Of a stretch of DNA of 64,000 nucleotides, positions 51,878 to 58,883 are shown one piece after another. A program made the translations under genes and the position numbers. Source of the stretch: Carbonactinospora thermoautotrophica (lineage in GTDB: Bacteria; Actinomycetota; Actinomycetes; Streptomycetales; Carbonactinosporaceae); contig NZ_JYIJ01000018.1 of the NCBI RefSeq assembly GCF_001543895.1, positions 496,001 to 560,000 on the forward strand, written 5' to 3'. A model generated the notes under the pieces. That model saw only the letters and a list, made by a program, of their open reading frames with translations, was not told where the DNA came from and made no database searches. Within the stretch, counting starts at the first letter, position 1. Each line of letters starts with the position of its first letter.

Positions 51878-52498
51878 CTACGACTCGATCGCCGCGTACC
51901 CGCCGAGGGCCACGAGGGTGCTGCCGGAGACCAACCGGGGCCAGCGGCGCCGCCGCGTCCGGAGTGCGCGCCCGGCCAGCGTGCCGGCCAGTGCTGCGAC
52001 GACCAGGTCGGCCAGCGTGTTCAGGGTCACGGAGAGGAGCCCCAGCACGAGGGACTGGACGGCGACCGAGCCGGCCGCCGGATCCACGAAGTGCGGCAGG
52101 AAGGCGAGGAAGAAGAGCGCCGTCTTGGGGTTGAGCGTCTCGGTCACCACGCCCTGCCGGAACGCGTTCCGGTCGGAGGGGCCACCGGCCGGGTCCGGCC
52201 GCGATGCTTCCTCACGGCGCAGCAGCGTACGGACCCCAAGGTAGACCAGGTACGCGGCGCCGACGTACTTCACCACGGCGAACGCGGTCGCGGAGGTGGC
52301 CAGGATCGCGGAGATGCCGAGAGCCGCCGCAGCCACGTGCGCGGCTCCCCCCACCGCCGTGCCCAGGGAACTGCGCGCGCCCGCCCGCCAGCCCCCGCCG
52401 ACGCTGCGGGCGAACACGTACAGCATGCCCGGCCCCGGGATCACGGCGAGCACGAGCGCGGCGGCCAGGAACGCGGGCAGGCGGTCGATGTCGGGCAC
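51878..52498 (-). CDS. LysE/RhtB family amino-acid exporter
   Basis: A 206-aa membrane protein with five to six helices. The N-terminal motif L-A-V-I-P-G-P-G-M-L-Y-V (about residues 16-27) and N-P-K-T-A-L-F-F-L-A-F-L-P (about 122-134) are diagnostic for LysE/RhtB exporters. I chose GTG 52498 because GAGGGG lies eight bases upstream and the fold begins there; GTG 52504 or an upstream ATG are alternatives. Substrate unknown. Confidence 0.87.
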   Translation of the reverse strand: MPDIDRLPAFLAAALVLAVIPGPGMLYVFARSVGGGWRAGARSSLGTAVGGAAHVAAAALGISAILATSATAFAVVKYVGAAYLVYLGVRTLLRREEASRPDPAGGPSDRNAFRQGVVTETLNPKTALFFLAFLPHFVDPAAGSVAVQSLVLGLLSVTLNTLADLVVAALAGTLAGRALRTRRRRWPRLVSGSTLVALGGYAAIES

Positions 52499-52539
52499 GG
52501 TCACCACCCCCTCGGTACGGGCCGGCCGGCCCGTACCGA

Positions 52540-53215
52540 TCATAAGTTAGCGCTGGCCGGTCCCCGCGCGGGCGTGCGGGACGGGGCAGGCGGGAACCCG
52601 CCGCCGTCTTGGAGACCGAACAGCGGCAGGCACGGCTCCAGGCCGTGGATCTCGACCGGAACCGTCCGGTGGCGTTCCCAGGATTCGCGGTCGACCAGAA
52701 GGCAGGCGCCTCGTCGCGGCGCTTCTGGCGCTCGACCGGCCGGTAGCCGAGCTTGGACCGCCAGGGAGGCGGCGTTGTCCGCCGGCGTGCGCGGCGACCG
52801 CGGCGAAGGCGGGGTGGCGGACCGCCGCGCGCATCCCGGTGCCGATGCCCCGGCCCTGGAACCGCCGGCCCAGCCACGAGCCGGTGGCGACCAGGGCGAA
52901 GTCCCTGCCGTGCACGCCCTGGGTGCCGACCACGTCGCGGAGCAGGCCAGCTCCAGGCGAGTCGTCCGGTTGCCAGGCGCCCCACGCGCTCCAGCGGTAC
53001 TGGAGCAACGCCAGCGCCAGCCGCCGCGGCGGCTGGTCGGTCCACAGCACGCCGAGCGGCATGTACCCCGGGTCGTGGCCGCCCTCGACCCCCAGGTCAG
53101 CGAGCGCGTCCAGGTCCTCGAACGTGGGCAGGCGCAGTTCGCGGCGGGGCGTGACAGGCGCAGGCCGAACAGCGGCCAGTGACGGGAACGCATGTGCCGA
53201 CTGCTCCTCCGCCAC
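52540..53215 (-). pseudogene. GNAT acetyltransferase broken by several frameshifts
   Basis: The first frame (from 53215) gives a good GNAT start: E-L-R-L-P-T-F-E-D-L, then G-R-R-F-Q-G-R-G-I-G-T-G-M-R-A-A-V (acetyl-CoA loop). Near 52775 the expected A-D-N-A-A-S-L-A-V continues in a second frame, near 52753 K-L-G-Y-R-P-V-E appears in a third frame, and near 52710 C-L-L-V-D-R-E-S-W-E-R returns in the second frame to a stop at 52540. At least three shifts are therefore needed. It is a recent pseudogene, or the assembly has errors here. Confidence 0.75.
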
Positions 53216-53257: not shown

Positions 53258-53830
53258 TCAGCCGTACACGAGGGCCTGGATGGCCAGCAGCAGGCCGAAG
53301 AGCGCGAACAGCGCGCCGGCGCCGATCCGGATCACCCGCTCCGGCAGTCGCTTGCCGAGCTGCATGCCGACGACGATGGCGAGCGCGTCGGCGGCGACCA
53401 TGCCGAGAGTCGACCCGGCCCAGGTGCCGAACAGGCCTTCCCGGGTGGCCAGGGTGACCGTGGCCAGCATGGTCTTGTCGCCCAGCTCGGCCAGGAAGAA
53501 GGCGATGGACGCGGCGAGCACCGCGGACTTGGCGGACCGGTCGAGCCGGTCGATATCTCCTTCGTCCAGATCGTCGCCGCGCCAGGTCCAGGCGGCGAAG
53601 CCGAGGAAAGCCAGGCCGGCGAGCAGCGTGACCCAGCGGGTGGGGATGGCGGCGCCGAGCCCGGCGCCGAGGAACACGCTGATCAGGTGGACGACGGCGG
53701 TGGCCGCGGTCAGGCCGATGAGGACGGGGAGCGCCCGGTACCGGGCGGCGAACGCCATCGCCACGAGTTGGCTCTTGTCGCCGAGTTCCGCGAGGAAGAT
53801 GATCCCGAAGCTCACCAGGAAAGCTGTCAC
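53258..53830 (-). CDS. TMEM165/GDT1 (UPF0016) family transporter, probable Mn2+ exporter
   Basis: A 190-aa membrane protein with two repeats of three helices. Each repeat carries the family motif: E-L-G-D-K-S near residue 15 and E-L-G-D-K-T near residue 107. The family exports Mn2+ or Ca2+. The start GTG 53830 follows GGAAGGG, and the upstream leader is a yybP-ykoY manganese riboswitch, which strongly supports Mn2+ export. The frame open to 54100 is part of that leader and not coding. Confidence 0.93.
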   Translation of the reverse strand: MTAFLVSFGIIFLAELGDKSQLVAMAFAARYRALPVLIGLTAATAVVHLISVFLGAGLGAAIPTRWVTLLAGLAFLGFAAWTWRGDDLDEGDIDRLDRSAKSAVLAASIAFFLAELGDKTMLATVTLATREGLFGTWAGSTLGMVAADALAIVVGMQLGKRLPERVIRIGAGALFALFGLLLAIQALVYG

Positions 53831-53834
53831 GACT

Positions 53835-53872
53835 GCCCTTCCAAGCTCCGGCTCACCGCCGGAGCGAAGGGC
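53835..53872 (-). promoter_or_regulatory. Hairpin hiding the ribosome binding site (riboswitch expression platform)
   Basis: In the transcript, GCCCTTC (plus-strand complement of 53866-53872) pairs with GAAGGGC (53835-53841), which covers the Shine-Dalgarno of the GDT1 gene. Between them an inner hairpin, GCTCCGGC/GCCGGAGC, stacks on the stem. Closing this would block translation initiation. This fits an off state that the Mn2+-bound riboswitch would prevent, although the switching path is inferred. Confidence 0.6.
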
Positions 53873-53913
53873 GCGAGACCGTTCGATCCGGCAGTGAGCG
53901 TACGACTGCCAGA

Positions 53914-54022
53914 CCGAAGGTCTCGCCCGCCTCGGGGTACGAGGCTCGGCTGACCGGGCCACGTCCCGCCCGGAAGCGGGGGCCAGTGTGTCGATCAGCC
54001 GATTGGGGCTACTCCCCTCCGG
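53914..54022 (-). ncRNA. yybP-ykoY manganese riboswitch
   Basis: On the minus strand the leader reads CCGGAGGGGAGTAGCC at its 5' end (from 54022) and GGCGAGACCTTCGG at its 3' end (to 53914). GGGGAGUAG and GAGACCUU are the conserved core parts of the yybP-ykoY motif, a known Mn2+ sensor. P1 forms from CCGGAGG with CCUUCGG. The motif lies 83 bases before the GTG of a GDT1-type transporter, a usual target of this riboswitch. Confidence 0.9.
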
Positions 54023-54211
54023 GTTCCGACAGAGCCTACCAAGGTCTTCGTGTTTCGGCCAGGTCACCGGAGCGGGGCGTCTGGCGACCGGGGTCACCAT
54101 CCGGTCAAGGGTTCAGATTTGACGCGATACTAGGCCGAACGTGTCCCGTAGGCTTCAAAGCTTGTAGATGAGGGCACCAGCTGGGCCCTGCACCAGCAGA
54201 GGGAGGACAGC
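54023..54211. other. Divergent promoter region between the riboswitch and the ROK gene
   Basis: This 189-base region must contain promoters for both the riboswitch transcript (minus) and the ROK regulator (plus). TTGACG at 54119-54124 is a possible -35 for the ROK gene, but no good -10 follows at normal spacing. TTCAAAGCTTG near 54153 resembles the dyads upstream of the ABC importer and may be an operator. Confidence 0.4.
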
Positions 54212-55387
54212 ATGACGGCGACGATGCCCGGGTCGCAGTCTTCACTACGCGAAGCGAACCAGCGGCGGGTCATCCGAGCTGTGCGTGCGGCCGGGTCGCT
54301 CACACAGGCCGAGATCGCCCGCGCCACCGGGCTGTCCGCCGCCACGGTGTCAAACATCGTGCGCGAGCTCAAGGAGGCGGGCACGCTCCTCGTCACCCCC
54401 ACCTCCGCCGGTGGCCGGCGTGCCCAGAGCGTGTCGCTGAGCCGCCGGGCCGGGCTCGCGCTCGCGGTGGACTTCGGGCACTCCCATCTCCGCGTGGCCG
54501 TCGGGGACATGGCCCACGAGGTGCTGGCCGAGGAGACCGTGCCGCTCGACGTCGACGCCTCCGCGGAGGAGGGGCTGCGCGTCGCCCAGCGGCTGGTGGA
54601 GGCGGTGCTGCGGCGTGCGGAGGTGGACCGGAGCGAGGTCGTGGGCGTGGGGCTCGGCGTGCCCGGGCCCATCGACACCCGGACCGGCACGGTCGGGTCC
54701 TCCACGATCCTGCCCGGTTGGGTGGGGGTGTCGCCGCAGGACGCATTGGCCGAGCGGCTCGGCCTGCCCGTCCACGTCGACAACGACGCCAACCTGGGCG
54801 CGCTCGGGGAGCTCGTGTGGGGCGCGGGCCGGGGGATGACCGACCTCGCGTACATCAAGGTGGCCACCGGCGTCGGCGCCGGGCTGGTCATCGGAGGACG
54901 GATCTATCGGGGCTCCGGCGGCACCGCCGGCGAGATCGGGCACATCACGATCGACGACACCGGCAAGGTCTGCCGGTGCGGCAACCGCGGCTGCCTGGAG
55001 ACGTTCGTGGGCGCCCCGTTCCTGCTGGAGCTGCTGCGCCACAGCCACGGCGAGCTCTCTTTGCACCAGGTCATCACCTTGGCGAAGGAGGGCGACCAGG
55101 GCAGCCGCCGGGTGATCGCCGACGCCGGGCGGCACATCGGCGTCGGCGTCGCCAACCTGTGCAACCTGCTGAACCCGCAGGCCGTCATCGTCGGCGGCGA
55201 GCTGGCCCAGGCGGGGGAGATCCTGCTTGGGCCGATCCGGGAGACCGTGGACCGGTACGCGATTCCGAGCGCGGCACGGGCCCTGACCGTCACGCAGGGC
55301 GCGCTGGGGGAGCGCGCGGAGATGCTCGGCGCTCTCGCCCTGGTGTTGCACGAGTCCGAGCTGCTACCCGGCGACGTGGTGACCTGA
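54212..55387 (+). CDS. ROK family transcriptional regulator (XylR-type)
   Basis: A 391-aa protein with an N-terminal winged helix (Q-A-E-I-A-R-A-T-G-L-S-A-A-T-V-S, about residues 32-47) and a ROK sugar-kinase-like domain. The ROK zinc motif is C254, C256 and C261 in C-R-C-G-N-R-G-C-L-E. D-N-D-A-N and G-E-I-G-H are also conserved. Such proteins usually repress sugar genes until sugar binds. A xylose-type ABC importer lies directly downstream, so it is probably the target. GGGAGG precedes ATG 54212. Confidence 0.9.
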   Translation: MTATMPGSQSSLREANQRRVIRAVRAAGSLTQAEIARATGLSAATVSNIVRELKEAGTLLVTPTSAGGRRAQSVSLSRRAGLALAVDFGHSHLRVAVGDMAHEVLAEETVPLDVDASAEEGLRVAQRLVEAVLRRAEVDRSEVVGVGLGVPGPIDTRTGTVGSSTILPGWVGVSPQDALAERLGLPVHVDNDANLGALGELVWGAGRGMTDLAYIKVATGVGAGLVIGGRIYRGSGGTAGEIGHITIDDTGKVCRCGNRGCLETFVGAPFLLELLRHSHGELSLHQVITLAKEGDQGSRRVIADAGRHIGVGVANLCNLLNPQAVIVGGELAQAGEILLGPIRETVDRYAIPSAARALTVTQGALGERAEMLGALALVLHESELLPGDVVT

Positions 55388-55594
55388 CCTGAGTCCGCCT
55401 GCGTGACTTGAAGACCTGTTCGGCAGGGCTGAGCCGCGCTGCTGCCGGGCGGTCGCGCGCACTGTCATGCGTTCAAGACAAAAATTATATCGGGTCGTTA
55501 TCTGATATGTGTGTTCAAGTCTTGACGACAAGTCAATAAGTGCATTGACTCTGCTCAACTTTGGTCGCCGTACGCGGTTGTCAGGAGGTTGCCA
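55388..55594 (+). other. Promoter region of the sugar ABC importer
   Basis: The 207-base spacer is unusually A+T-rich from about 55478 to 55550. GTTCAAG occurs at 55471-55477 and 55513-55519, 42 bases apart. Two dyads follow (see next entry). AGGAGG at 55583-55588 is the ribosome binding site of the binding-protein gene. Confidence 0.55.
55515..55550 (+). promoter_or_regulatory. Two dyads, candidate ROK operators
   Basis: TCAAG-T-CTTGA (55515-55525) is a perfect 5-1-5 palindrome, and AGTCAAT-AAGTGC-ATTGACT (55531-55550) is a perfect seven-bp inverted repeat with a six-base centre. They lie 45-80 bases before the substrate-binding protein gene. Regulation by the adjacent ROK protein is inferred from position only. 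Confidence 0.5.
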
Positions 55595-56695
55595 GTGGAG
55601 AGATTCGCGCGCCGCACGGTGGTGGCCGGCACCGCGCTGGTGCTTGCCCTGAGCGTCGCCGGTTGCGGGCAGCAGGCGGATGGCGGCGGCGGCAAGGCCT
55701 CGGTCGAGGAGGGCTTCAAGGTCGGCCTCCTGCTGCCCGAGAGCAAGACCGCCCGCTACGAGGCCTTCGACAAGCCGATCATCGAGAAGAACATCAAGGC
55801 GCTCTGTGCCAAGTGCGAGGTCCTGTACCAGAACGCACAGCAGGACGCGGCCAAGCAGCAGACCCAGGCGGACTCGCTGCTGAGCCAGGGCGTCAAGGTG
55901 CTCATCCTGGACGCTGTCGACGCCAAGTCCGCCGGCGGCATCGTGACCAAGGCCAAGCAGCAGGGCGTGCCGGTGGTCGCGTACGACCGCTTCGCCTCTG
56001 GCCCGGTCGACTACTTCGTGACCTTCGACAACCGGAAGGTCGGCGAGGAGCAGGGCAAGGCGCTGCTGGAGGCCCTGCAGAAGGGCGGCGACCCCAAGCG
56101 CGGCCAGGTCGTGATGATCAACGGCTCCCCGACCGACCCGAACGCCGCTGACTTCAAGGCCGGCGCCCACTCGGTGCTCGACGGCAAGGTCAACATCGGC
56201 GCCGAGTACGACACCCCGGACTGGAGCCCGGACAAGGCCCAGCAGGAGATGGAGCAGGCCATCACCAAGCTGGGCGCCGACAAGATCATCGGCGTGTACG
56301 CGGCCAACGACGGCACCGCCAGCGGTGCGATCGCCGCGCTGAAGGCCCGCGGCGTGAAACCGCTGCCGCCGGTCACCGGTCAGGACGCGGAGCTGGCCGC
56401 CATCCAGCGGATCATCGCCGGCGACCAGTACATGACCATCTACAAGCCGTACGCCCCGGAGGCGGAGACGGCCGCGAAGATGGCGATCGCCGCCGCGACC
56501 GGGCAGAAGTACGCCGGGCAGACCCAGGAGCTGACCAACGGGAGCGGCGACAAGGTGCCCTCGGTGCTCCTGCCGGTCGTCCGCGTGACCAAGGAGAACG
56601 TCAAGGACACCGTCATCAAGGACGGCGTCTACACGGTCGACCAGATCTGCACCCCGCAGTACCAGGCCGCCTGCCGGCAGGCGGGTATCTCCTGA
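55595..56695 (+). CDS. xylF: Sugar ABC transporter substrate-binding lipoprotein, xylose type (XylF-like)
   Basis: A 366-aa lipoprotein: signal peptide with lipobox V-A-G-C (Cys near residue 26), then a type 1 periplasmic binding fold. Segments such as V-V-A-Y-D-R-F, F-D-N-R-K-V-G-E, I-N-G-S-P-T-D-P-N-A, T-I-Y-K-P and D-T-V-I-K-D-G closely follow E. coli XylF, so xylose is the best guess. I chose GTG 55595, six bases after AGGAGG; TTG 55589 is unlikely. It is the first gene of a three-gene importer. Confidence 0.85.
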   Translation: MERFARRTVVAGTALVLALSVAGCGQQADGGGGKASVEEGFKVGLLLPESKTARYEAFDKPIIEKNIKALCAKCEVLYQNAQQDAAKQQTQADSLLSQGVKVLILDAVDAKSAGGIVTKAKQQGVPVVAYDRFASGPVDYFVTFDNRKVGEEQGKALLEALQKGGDPKRGQVVMINGSPTDPNAADFKAGAHSVLDGKVNIGAEYDTPDWSPDKAQQEMEQAITKLGADKIIGVYAANDGTASGAIAALKARGVKPLPPVTGQDAELAAIQRIIAGDQYMTIYKPYAPEAETAAKMAIAAATGQKYAGQTQELTNGSGDKVPSVLLPVVRVTKENVKDTVIKDGVYTVDQICTPQYQAACRQAGIS

Positions 56696-56787
56696 CCGTG
56701 GACAGGCCCGGCGGCGCCCCCTTGGCCGGGGCGCCGCCCGGGGCGACACCACGCGCGCACCCCGCAATCTCAAGGAGTTGATAGAGC

Positions 56788-57624
56788 GTGACGAGCACTT
56801 CGGTGCTGACCGGCACTCCGGTGCTGTCGCTGCGCGGGATCTCCAAGCGATTCGGCGCGGTCCAGGCGCTGACGGACGTCGAGCTCGACGTGTACGCGGG
56901 TGAGGTCGTGGCCCTGGTCGGCGACAACGGCGCGGGCAAGTCGACCCTCATCAAGGTCATCTCCGGCGTCGGCCCCGCGGACGAGGGCACGATCGAGTGG
57001 CAGGGCCGACGTGTCGAGATCAACCGGCCGTACGACGCGCAGCAGCTCGGCATCGCCACCGTGTACCAGGACCTCGCGCTGTGCGACAACCTCGACGTGG
57101 TGGCCAACCTCTTTCTCGGTCGGGAGCGGACCCGCCGCGGGGTACTCGACGAGATCGAGATGGAGCGGCGCGCCCGCGAGCTGCTGCAGTCGCTGTCCGT
57201 CAAGATCCCGAGTGTGCGGATCCCGGTGGCCTCGCTGTCCGGCGGCCAGCGCCAGTCGGTGGCGATCGCCCGGTCGCTGCTCGGCGAGCCGAAGATCGTG
57301 CTGCTCGACGAGCCGACCGCCGCGCTCGGCGTCGAGCAGACCGCCCACGTCCTCGACCTGATCAAGCGGCTGCGCGAGCAGGGGCTCGGCGTCATTCTGA
57401 TCAGCCACAACCTCGCCGACGTGCGGGCGGTGGCGGACCGGATCGCGGTGCTGCGGCTCGGCAGGAACAACGGCTTCTTCAAGACCGACGAGGTCACCCA
57501 GGAGGAGATCGTCGCGGCGATCACCGGAGCGGTGGACAACAGCCTCGTCCGCCGCCACGCCCGGGTGGCCGAGCTCGGTACGGACGCAAGCCAGACGGTT
57601 CCCCAGGAGGCGAACGACTCGTGA
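56788..57624 (+). CDS. xylG: Sugar ABC transporter ATP-binding protein (single domain)
   Basis: A 278-aa ATPase with Walker A G-D-N-G-A-G-K-S-T (about residues 44-52), signature L-S-G-G-Q-R-Q-S-V (about 149-157), Walker B V-L-L-D-E-P-T-A-A and the switch His in L-I-S-H-N-L. E. coli XylG has two ATPase domains in one chain, but this protein has one, so two copies must pair. The stop overlaps the permease start (GTGA). AAGGAG at about ten bases upstream precedes GTG 56788. Confidence 0.9.
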   Translation: MTSTSVLTGTPVLSLRGISKRFGAVQALTDVELDVYAGEVVALVGDNGAGKSTLIKVISGVGPADEGTIEWQGRRVEINRPYDAQQLGIATVYQDLALCDNLDVVANLFLGRERTRRGVLDEIEMERRARELLQSLSVKIPSVRIPVASLSGGQRQSVAIARSLLGEPKIVLLDEPTAALGVEQTAHVLDLIKRLREQGLGVILISHNLADVRAVADRIAVLRLGRNNGFFKTDEVTQEEIVAAITGAVDNSLVRRHARVAELGTDASQTVPQEANDS

Positions 57625-58883
57625 GCTCCTCGAAGGTTTCCGCCCAGGCGCCGTCCGGCGCCGCCCTCGACGTCGTCGATCCCCGGCTGATCATCCGGCA
57701 GGAGGGGCTCCGCGGGTACTGGGACGTCTTCCTGCGCCGGGTGCGCGGCGGTGAGCTGGGCGCGCTGCCGGTGGTCATCGGCCTCGTCCTCATGGCCGGC
57801 GTCTTCCAGTCGCTGGCCCCGACCTTCCTCTCCCCGGGCAACATCTCCAACCTGACCCTGCAGATCGCCTCCACCGGGCTGATCTCGATCGGCGTGGTGC
57901 TGGTGCTGCTGCTCGGCGAGATCGACCTCTCGGTGGGGTCGGTCAGCGGCTTCACCGCGGCGATCATGGCCGTGATGAGCGTCAAGAACGGCCAGCACCC
58001 CATCCTGGCCATGGCGGTCGCCGTCGCGGTGGGCGCGCTCATCGGCGTCTTGCAGGGGACCGTGTTCGCCAAGGTCGGCGTGCCGTCGTTCGTCGTCACG
58101 CTGGCCGGCCTCATCGGCTGGCAGGGCGCGCTCCTGTACACGCTGGGTGAGACCGGCACGGTCAACATCCCCTACGACGGCGCGGTCGCGTTCCTGGCGA
58201 ACACGTTCTTCCCGCCGGTGGTCGGGTACCTCCTGGCGGCCGTTCCGGTGCTGGTCTACCTGCTCGTCATGGTGCGGACGAACGCGCGCCGGGCGCGAGC
58301 CGGCCTGCCCACCCAGGCGACCATGGACATCGCGCTGCGCATCGCCGGGATCGCGGTGATCGGGTTCGTGGTGGTGTACGTGCTCAACCTGACCCGCGGG
58401 GTGCCGCTCGCGTTGGTGATCTTCGTCGGGTTCGTGATCGCCTTCGACCTGTTGCTCCGCAAGACCCGGTACGGCCGGCAGATCTTCGCCGTCGGCGGCA
58501 ACGCCGAGGCCGCCCGCCGCGCCGGGATCAACGTGGACCTGGTCCGCATCTCGGTCTTCGCGATCGCCTCGGCCATGGCCGCCGTCGGCGGCCTGATGGC
58601 GGCGGCCCGGCTGTTCGCGGTCAACCAAGCCTCCGGAGGCGGTGACGTGCTGCTCAACGCGATCGCGGCGGCCGTCATCGGCGGCACCAGCCTGTTCGGC
58701 GGCCGGGGCAGCACCTGGTCCGCGCTGCTCGGCATGCTCGTCATCGGCTCGATCCAGTCCGGCATCCTGCTGCTCGATCTGCAGGCCGACGCGCAGTACA
58801 TGATCACCGGGGCGGTCCTGCTGGTCGCGGTGATCGTCGACTCGCTGTCGCGGCGGGGCCGGATGGCGAGCGGTCGCGCGTAG
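57621..58883 (+). CDS. xylH: Sugar ABC transporter permease (XylH-like)
   Basis: A 420-aa permease with about 11-12 helices. L-G-E-I-D-L-S-V-G-S-V-S-G (about residues 92-104) and G-G-N-A-E-A-A-R-R-A-G-I (coupling region, near 292) are typical of the ribose/xylose class. G-G-T-S-L-F-G-G-R-G near residue 350 is also conserved. I chose GTG 57621, overlapping the ATPase stop; the frame upstream is a shadow. A strong hairpin follows the stop. Confidence 0.9.
   Translation: MSSSKVSAQAPSGAALDVVDPRLIIRQEGLRGYWDVFLRRVRGGELGALPVVIGLVLMAGVFQSLAPTFLSPGNISNLTLQIASTGLISIGVVLVLLLGEIDLSVGSVSGFTAAIMAVMSVKNGQHPILAMAVAVAVGALIGVLQGTVFAKVGVPSFVVTLAGLIGWQGALLYTLGETGTVNIPYDGAVAFLANTFFPPVVGYLLAAVPVLVYLLVMVRTNARRARAGLPTQATMDIALRIAGIAVIGFVVVYVLNLTRGVPLALVIFVGFVIAFDLLLRKTRYGRQIFAVGGNAEAARRAGINVDLVRISVFAIASAMAAVGGLMAAARLFAVNQASGGGDVLLNAIAAAVIGGTSLFGGRGSTWSALLGMLVIGSIQSGILLLDLQADAQYMITGAVLLVAVIVDSLSRRGRMASGRA

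Follow-up and report, generated by a model that had tools for sequence, protein, structure and literature searches.

A yybP-ykoY manganese riboswitch and its probable translational switch ahead of a GDT1-type gene in Carbonactinospora thermoautotrophica

The yybP-ykoY riboswitches of X. oryzae and L. lactis, both known from crystal structures, act by transcription antitermination through the helix P1.1. In X. oryzae, the third letter of the L3 bulge (A48) contacts Mn2+ through its N7, and the A48U change abolishes the stably docked state (PMC6754395). For E. coli, two Mn-sensing riboswitches are reported, alx and mntP (PMC9603457). The mntP element is a translational ON switch for an Mn2+ exporter (PMC11647493); the alx element controls a TerC-family protein, with a pH-linked response also reported (PMC9603457). 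Genes of the UPF0016 family are frequent targets as well, lying under this riboswitch in 328 of the 333 screened bacterial strains with such a gene (review, PMC7380456). Actinobacterial members of the class are already known, and the class is therefore not new in the phylum: yybP-ykoY leaders of C. glutamicum, for example before terC, had been compiled using a previous Rfam release, one of them with an observed transcript (PMC3890552). These leaders belong to another genus than the one described here, the leader with the transcript has TerC in place of GDT1, and in a control scan with the present Rfam copy C. glutamicum did not exceed the cut-off of RF00080. A search of the literature open without subscription found no paper describing experiments on a Mn2+ riboswitch from actinobacteria.

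Carbonactinospora thermoautotrophica (GTDB lineage Bacteria; Actinomycetota; Actinomycetes; Streptomycetales; Carbonactinosporaceae) carries a member of this class on the minus strand of the window, a 64,000-nt stretch of assembly GCF_001543895.1 (NZ_JYIJ01000018.1, positions 496,001-560,000; coordinates below are within the stretch). It is very probably a yybP-ykoY manganese riboswitch that turns on the translation of a GDT1-type Mn2+ exporter (Table 1). An initial annotation of this DNA had proposed a manganese riboswitch ahead of a GDT1-type gene; homology supports the class, from which Mn2+ sensing would follow. The assignment of the gene to UPF0016/GDT1 holds, as its product has two PF01169 domains over the cut-off and contains ELGDKS and ELGDKT, which fit the pattern E-x-G-D-(K/R)-(S/T) of each domain. 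Family and riboswitch together make Mn2+ export by this product likely, which gives a poorly characterised UPF0016 membrane protein both a likely function and a named regulator.

Downstream of gdt1 on the same strand (51878-53215, minus) lie a LysE-type translocator (111 bits) and a possible GNAT-like protein (weak, below the cut-off). Divergent from the riboswitch (54212-58883, plus), a gene for a ROK-family regulator (211.7 bits) is followed by those of an apparent sugar ABC transporter (binding protein, ATPase, permease), likely a sugar regulon with no relation to Mn2+. An open frame in phase with gdt1 also covers the riboswitch from end to end (53831-54100, minus; 280 aa from ATG 54100), and automatic gene calling could therefore wrongly extend the protein across the leader.

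Table 1. Features of the gdt1 leader, its downstream gene and the second riboswitch copy (window coordinates unless a locus is given).
Feature	Position	Strand	Basis
Putative -10 box TAGGCT, just 5' of the aptamer	54033..54038	-	TANNNT recurrence in leaders
yybP-ykoY (Mn2+) aptamer, class by homology	53914..54022	-	leave-one-out covariance model, fold, covariation
P1.1, CCGGAGG with CCUUCGG	54022..54016 with 53920..53914	-	sequence, fold
L1 core GGGGAGUAG	54009..54017	-	invariant across the alignment of 66 aptamers
L3, putative metal-sensing bulge ACACACU	53985..53991	-	ACA..CU invariant among 66 aptamers; roles from PMC6754395
3' core GAGACCUU	53917..53924	-	exact match; AGACCUUCG invariant in relatives
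Alternative (OFF) hairpin, takes the aptamer 3' strand and excludes P1.1	53875..53924	-	MFE of full leader and platform
Switching strand, able to form the 3' arm of the OFF hairpin or to pair with the anti-SD strand	53877..53897	-	duplex energy
Anti-SD strand	53852..53873	-	pairs with SD strand or switching strand
SD-sequestering hairpin	53835..53872	-	MFE of platform
Shine-Dalgarno (SD) GGAAGG before GTG 53830	53837..53842	-	sequence; best SD window
gdt1 (UPF0016), likely Mn2+/H+ antiporter	53258..53830, GTG start 53830	-	PF01169, 152.6 bits
terC riboswitch copy	L171:2355-2485, contig C15	-	R2 match; ends 38 nt before terC start

The aptamer has the architecture expected of the class. Its segment folds at -69.9 kcal/mol (z -3.3) into P1.1, the L1 loop, P1.2 (GCCC/GGGC), a long helix whose L3 bulge faces CCGG, and a third hairpin. 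The GGGGAGUAG of L1 is closed by P1.1 with the 3' AGACCUU, and the spaced pair of GGGGAGUAG and GAGACCUU occurs once in the 64 kb and in none of 100 shuffles. The initial annotation had already named these two motifs on the 5' and 3' sides together with a P1 stem, all found exactly as placed, and its ends for the element coincide with those of P1.1; it gave no strand. L1, L3 and the sensing adenosine are shared with the X. oryzae and L. lactis structures. The adenosine A53989, invariant opposite an invariant CCGG in 66 aptamers, is the counterpart of the Mn2+-contacting A48 in X. oryzae and A41 in L. lactis (residue roles from PMC6754395). Many relatives have the L3 of X. oryzae, ACAUACU, where C. 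thermoautotrophica has ACACACU.

These features recur ahead of related genes. The upstream regions of 80 loci whose products are the closest GDT1 relatives were examined for the aptamer motifs, and in 67 of them GGGGAGUAG lies about 150-230 nt, and AGACC about 65-155 nt, before the gene; among these 67 are Micromonospora, Actinoplanes, Pseudonocardia, Actinopolymorpha, Actinomadura and some Acidimicrobiales. In 12 of the 80 the covariance model finds no aptamer either, and the association of GDT1 with the aptamer is thus not universal; in one more locus without the motif the upstream region is cut off by the contig edge. Across an alignment of 66 distinct aptamers, L1, UCGACA..CUG, CCGG and AGACCUUCG are invariant. 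Two-sided changes are present at 14 of the 29 pairs, and 97.2% of the alignment cells pair, a share that falls to 34-45% on sliding the partners; P1.1 is itself nearly invariant, so that the covariation is no proof of that particular helix.

How does the element relate to the described members of the class? The check that had been suggested was a search with the Rfam covariance model. At the gathering score of RF00080 (45 bits) the aptamer falls below the threshold, and loose E-values likewise gave no passing match, yet the site is the best RF00080 match in the whole 5.1-Mb genome (10.1 bits, E 3.4). For the mntP and alx leaders of E. coli, too, the same Rfam copy yields no match at gathering; mntP reaches 41.6 bits against the cut-off of 45, and alx is absent from the direct-scan list. 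Since reported E. coli Mn riboswitches miss the same cut-off, the RF00080 miss carries little weight and was set aside as a refutation. A covariance model built from 45 relatives with the C. thermoautotrophica gdt1 aptamer left out (R2) gives that aptamer 67.6 bits (E 3.6e-15 genome-wide) and further recognises the leaders of alx (38.0 bits, E 3.2e-9) and mntP (24.0 bits, E 3.5e-5), each E. coli value referring to 12 kb. The element is thus homologous to experimentally known members, and together with the core features conserved in the relatives and the covariation, this match to alx and mntP upholds the earlier assignment to the yybP-ykoY core. Both E. coli leaders share the aptamer core; mntP differs in controlling MntP instead of GDT1, in a longer insert after L1 and in another platform sequence, and alx in controlling a TerC-family protein.

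The region around the aptamer points to control of translation. In 64 of 67 leaders a TANNNT box precedes the aptamer by 11-16 nt (shuffled mean 5.7, maximum 13), a position from which the transcript probably starts at the aptamer. A U-tract between the aptamer and the start codon is absent from all 67 leaders, which makes intrinsic termination unlikely, and an intrinsic terminator was rejected on this ground; in this respect the C. thermoautotrophica leader, with no visible terminator, departs from the antitermination mechanism of X. oryzae and L. lactis. Three strands would compete instead. The switching strand and the anti-SD strand form a duplex of -30.4 kcal/mol (z -4.2), matched by none of 300 shuffles and covering all nine anti-SD positions. 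Against the targets of other species the C. thermoautotrophica switching strand pairs more weakly (mean -17.1 kcal/mol). Within the relatives, the best duplex of the switching strand falls on the anti-SD strand in 55 of the 61 leaders with a definable anti-SD, and both pairings of the switching strand reappear at corresponding positions across 66 leaders; taken one by one, the switching duplexes of only about half of the relatives beat shuffles at 0.05. An opposite reading, in which Mn2+ turns the gene off because the alternative hairpin would weaken the SD hairpin, was dropped since the switching strand can pair with the aptamer 3' strand as well as with the anti-SD strand.

The energies bear on when the switch would be thrown. 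At full length with P1.1 enforced, the SD-paired fold (-114.3 kcal/mol) wins over the SD-freed fold (-107.3 kcal/mol) at equilibrium, and the equilibrium SD accessibility of the C. thermoautotrophica leader is 0.17 in both states; a clear change in accessibility is predicted for many Micromonospora leaders but not for this one. The SD thus stays paired at equilibrium even with P1.1, and the ON state would need kinetic control. In a nascent transcript ending just before the SD strand, the MFE structure is the helix of switching strand and anti-SD strand when P1.1 is enforced, and the alternative hairpin when P1.1 is absent.

Read most simply, the leader is a translational ON switch with the decision taken during transcription. 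At low Mn2+, P1.1 would fail, the aptamer 3' strand would pair with the switching strand, and the anti-SD strand would be left to pair with the SD strand, turning translation off. At high Mn2+, the ion would dock L1 onto L3 via A53989 and lock P1.1, and the freed switching strand would capture the anti-SD strand ahead of transcription of the SD strand, which would keep the SD accessible. High manganese therewith probably switches gdt1 translation on, as it does for the exporter gene mntP in E. coli. The platform is a directly testable design of a translational switch for GC-rich bacteria.

A riboswitch of the same class whose main effect falls on the transcript, for example through Rho-dependent termination within the untranslated leader, is the alternative that survives best, and an unlikely one. 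Rho does terminate in the E. coli mntP riboswitch region, alongside translation control (PMC11647493), and the persistence of the SD hairpin as the equilibrium fold would suit such a mechanism, whereas the conserved anti-SD strand with its competing strand is best explained by translation control and the missing U-tract speaks against termination of the intrinsic kind. Still less probable is an aptamer fold that responds to something other than Mn2+, for instance a different divalent metal or pH. The pH-linked response reported for alx, a leader of the same family (PMC9603457), lends this some plausibility; against it stand the invariance of the Mn2+-contacting adenosine and of the L1, L3 and CCGG core, the identity of many relatives' L3 to that of X. 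oryzae, and the Mn2+ exporter families encoded behind the aptamer. Chance resemblance, or an N-terminally extended coding region reaching to 54100, has next to no probability despite the lack of an Rfam match at gathering and the 280-aa frame across the leader, being refuted by the leave-one-out match and by covariation with insertions of varied length, and there are relatives whose genes begin at the position of GTG 53830.

Beyond the gdt1 leader, the homology model reveals how widely the class is spread. Scans of 197 actinomycete genomes, both with strict filters and rough E-values, gave R2 matches at E<=0.01 in 120 genomes and RF00080 matches over the cut-off in none, which means that automatic annotation overlooks the regulator across actinomycetes. 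Inspection of 70 R2 match loci (the 30 best and 40 picked for diversity) found a GDT1, TerC or MntP gene present in the fetched locus in 62 of them (42 GDT1, 18 TerC and 2 MntP), and a gene of Mn2+ homeostasis is thus found with the aptamer at these loci as it is downstream of the aptamer here. The chances are about even that actinomycetes, in more than half of the genomes, hold a large and mostly unannotated clade of Mn2+ riboswitches missed by Rfam, together with a GDT1 branch that uses a kinetic three-strand translational switch in which the freed strand takes up the anti-SD ahead of SD synthesis. Of use here are the extent of the current annotation gap and the three-strand platform.

Some matches lie before other genes. 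One further inspected locus has an R2 match ahead of a gene of the Na+/Ca2+ exchanger family (76.7 bits), and in one genome two matches (L153 and L154) precede genes for two long proteins that resemble N-terminal parts of large P-type ATPases; the one of the two that was tested had no Pfam match. Two L3 types can be distinguished among loci L131-L170, GUCGACAYRCUG mostly before GDT1 and MntP genes and UCGUCA..ACG mostly before TerC genes, which suggests separate aptamer lineages.

C. thermoautotrophica itself has more than one copy. No MntP gene was found in its genome; a second member of the class lies ahead of its terC gene (R2 34.6 bits, E 9.2e-9 in 3.6 kb). The idea of a single copy in this genome, based on a whole-genome scan that scored 150 of 17,027 candidates, was dropped once direct inspection of the terC locus found this second one, which bears the TerC-type L3 loop (GUCAGCACGG).
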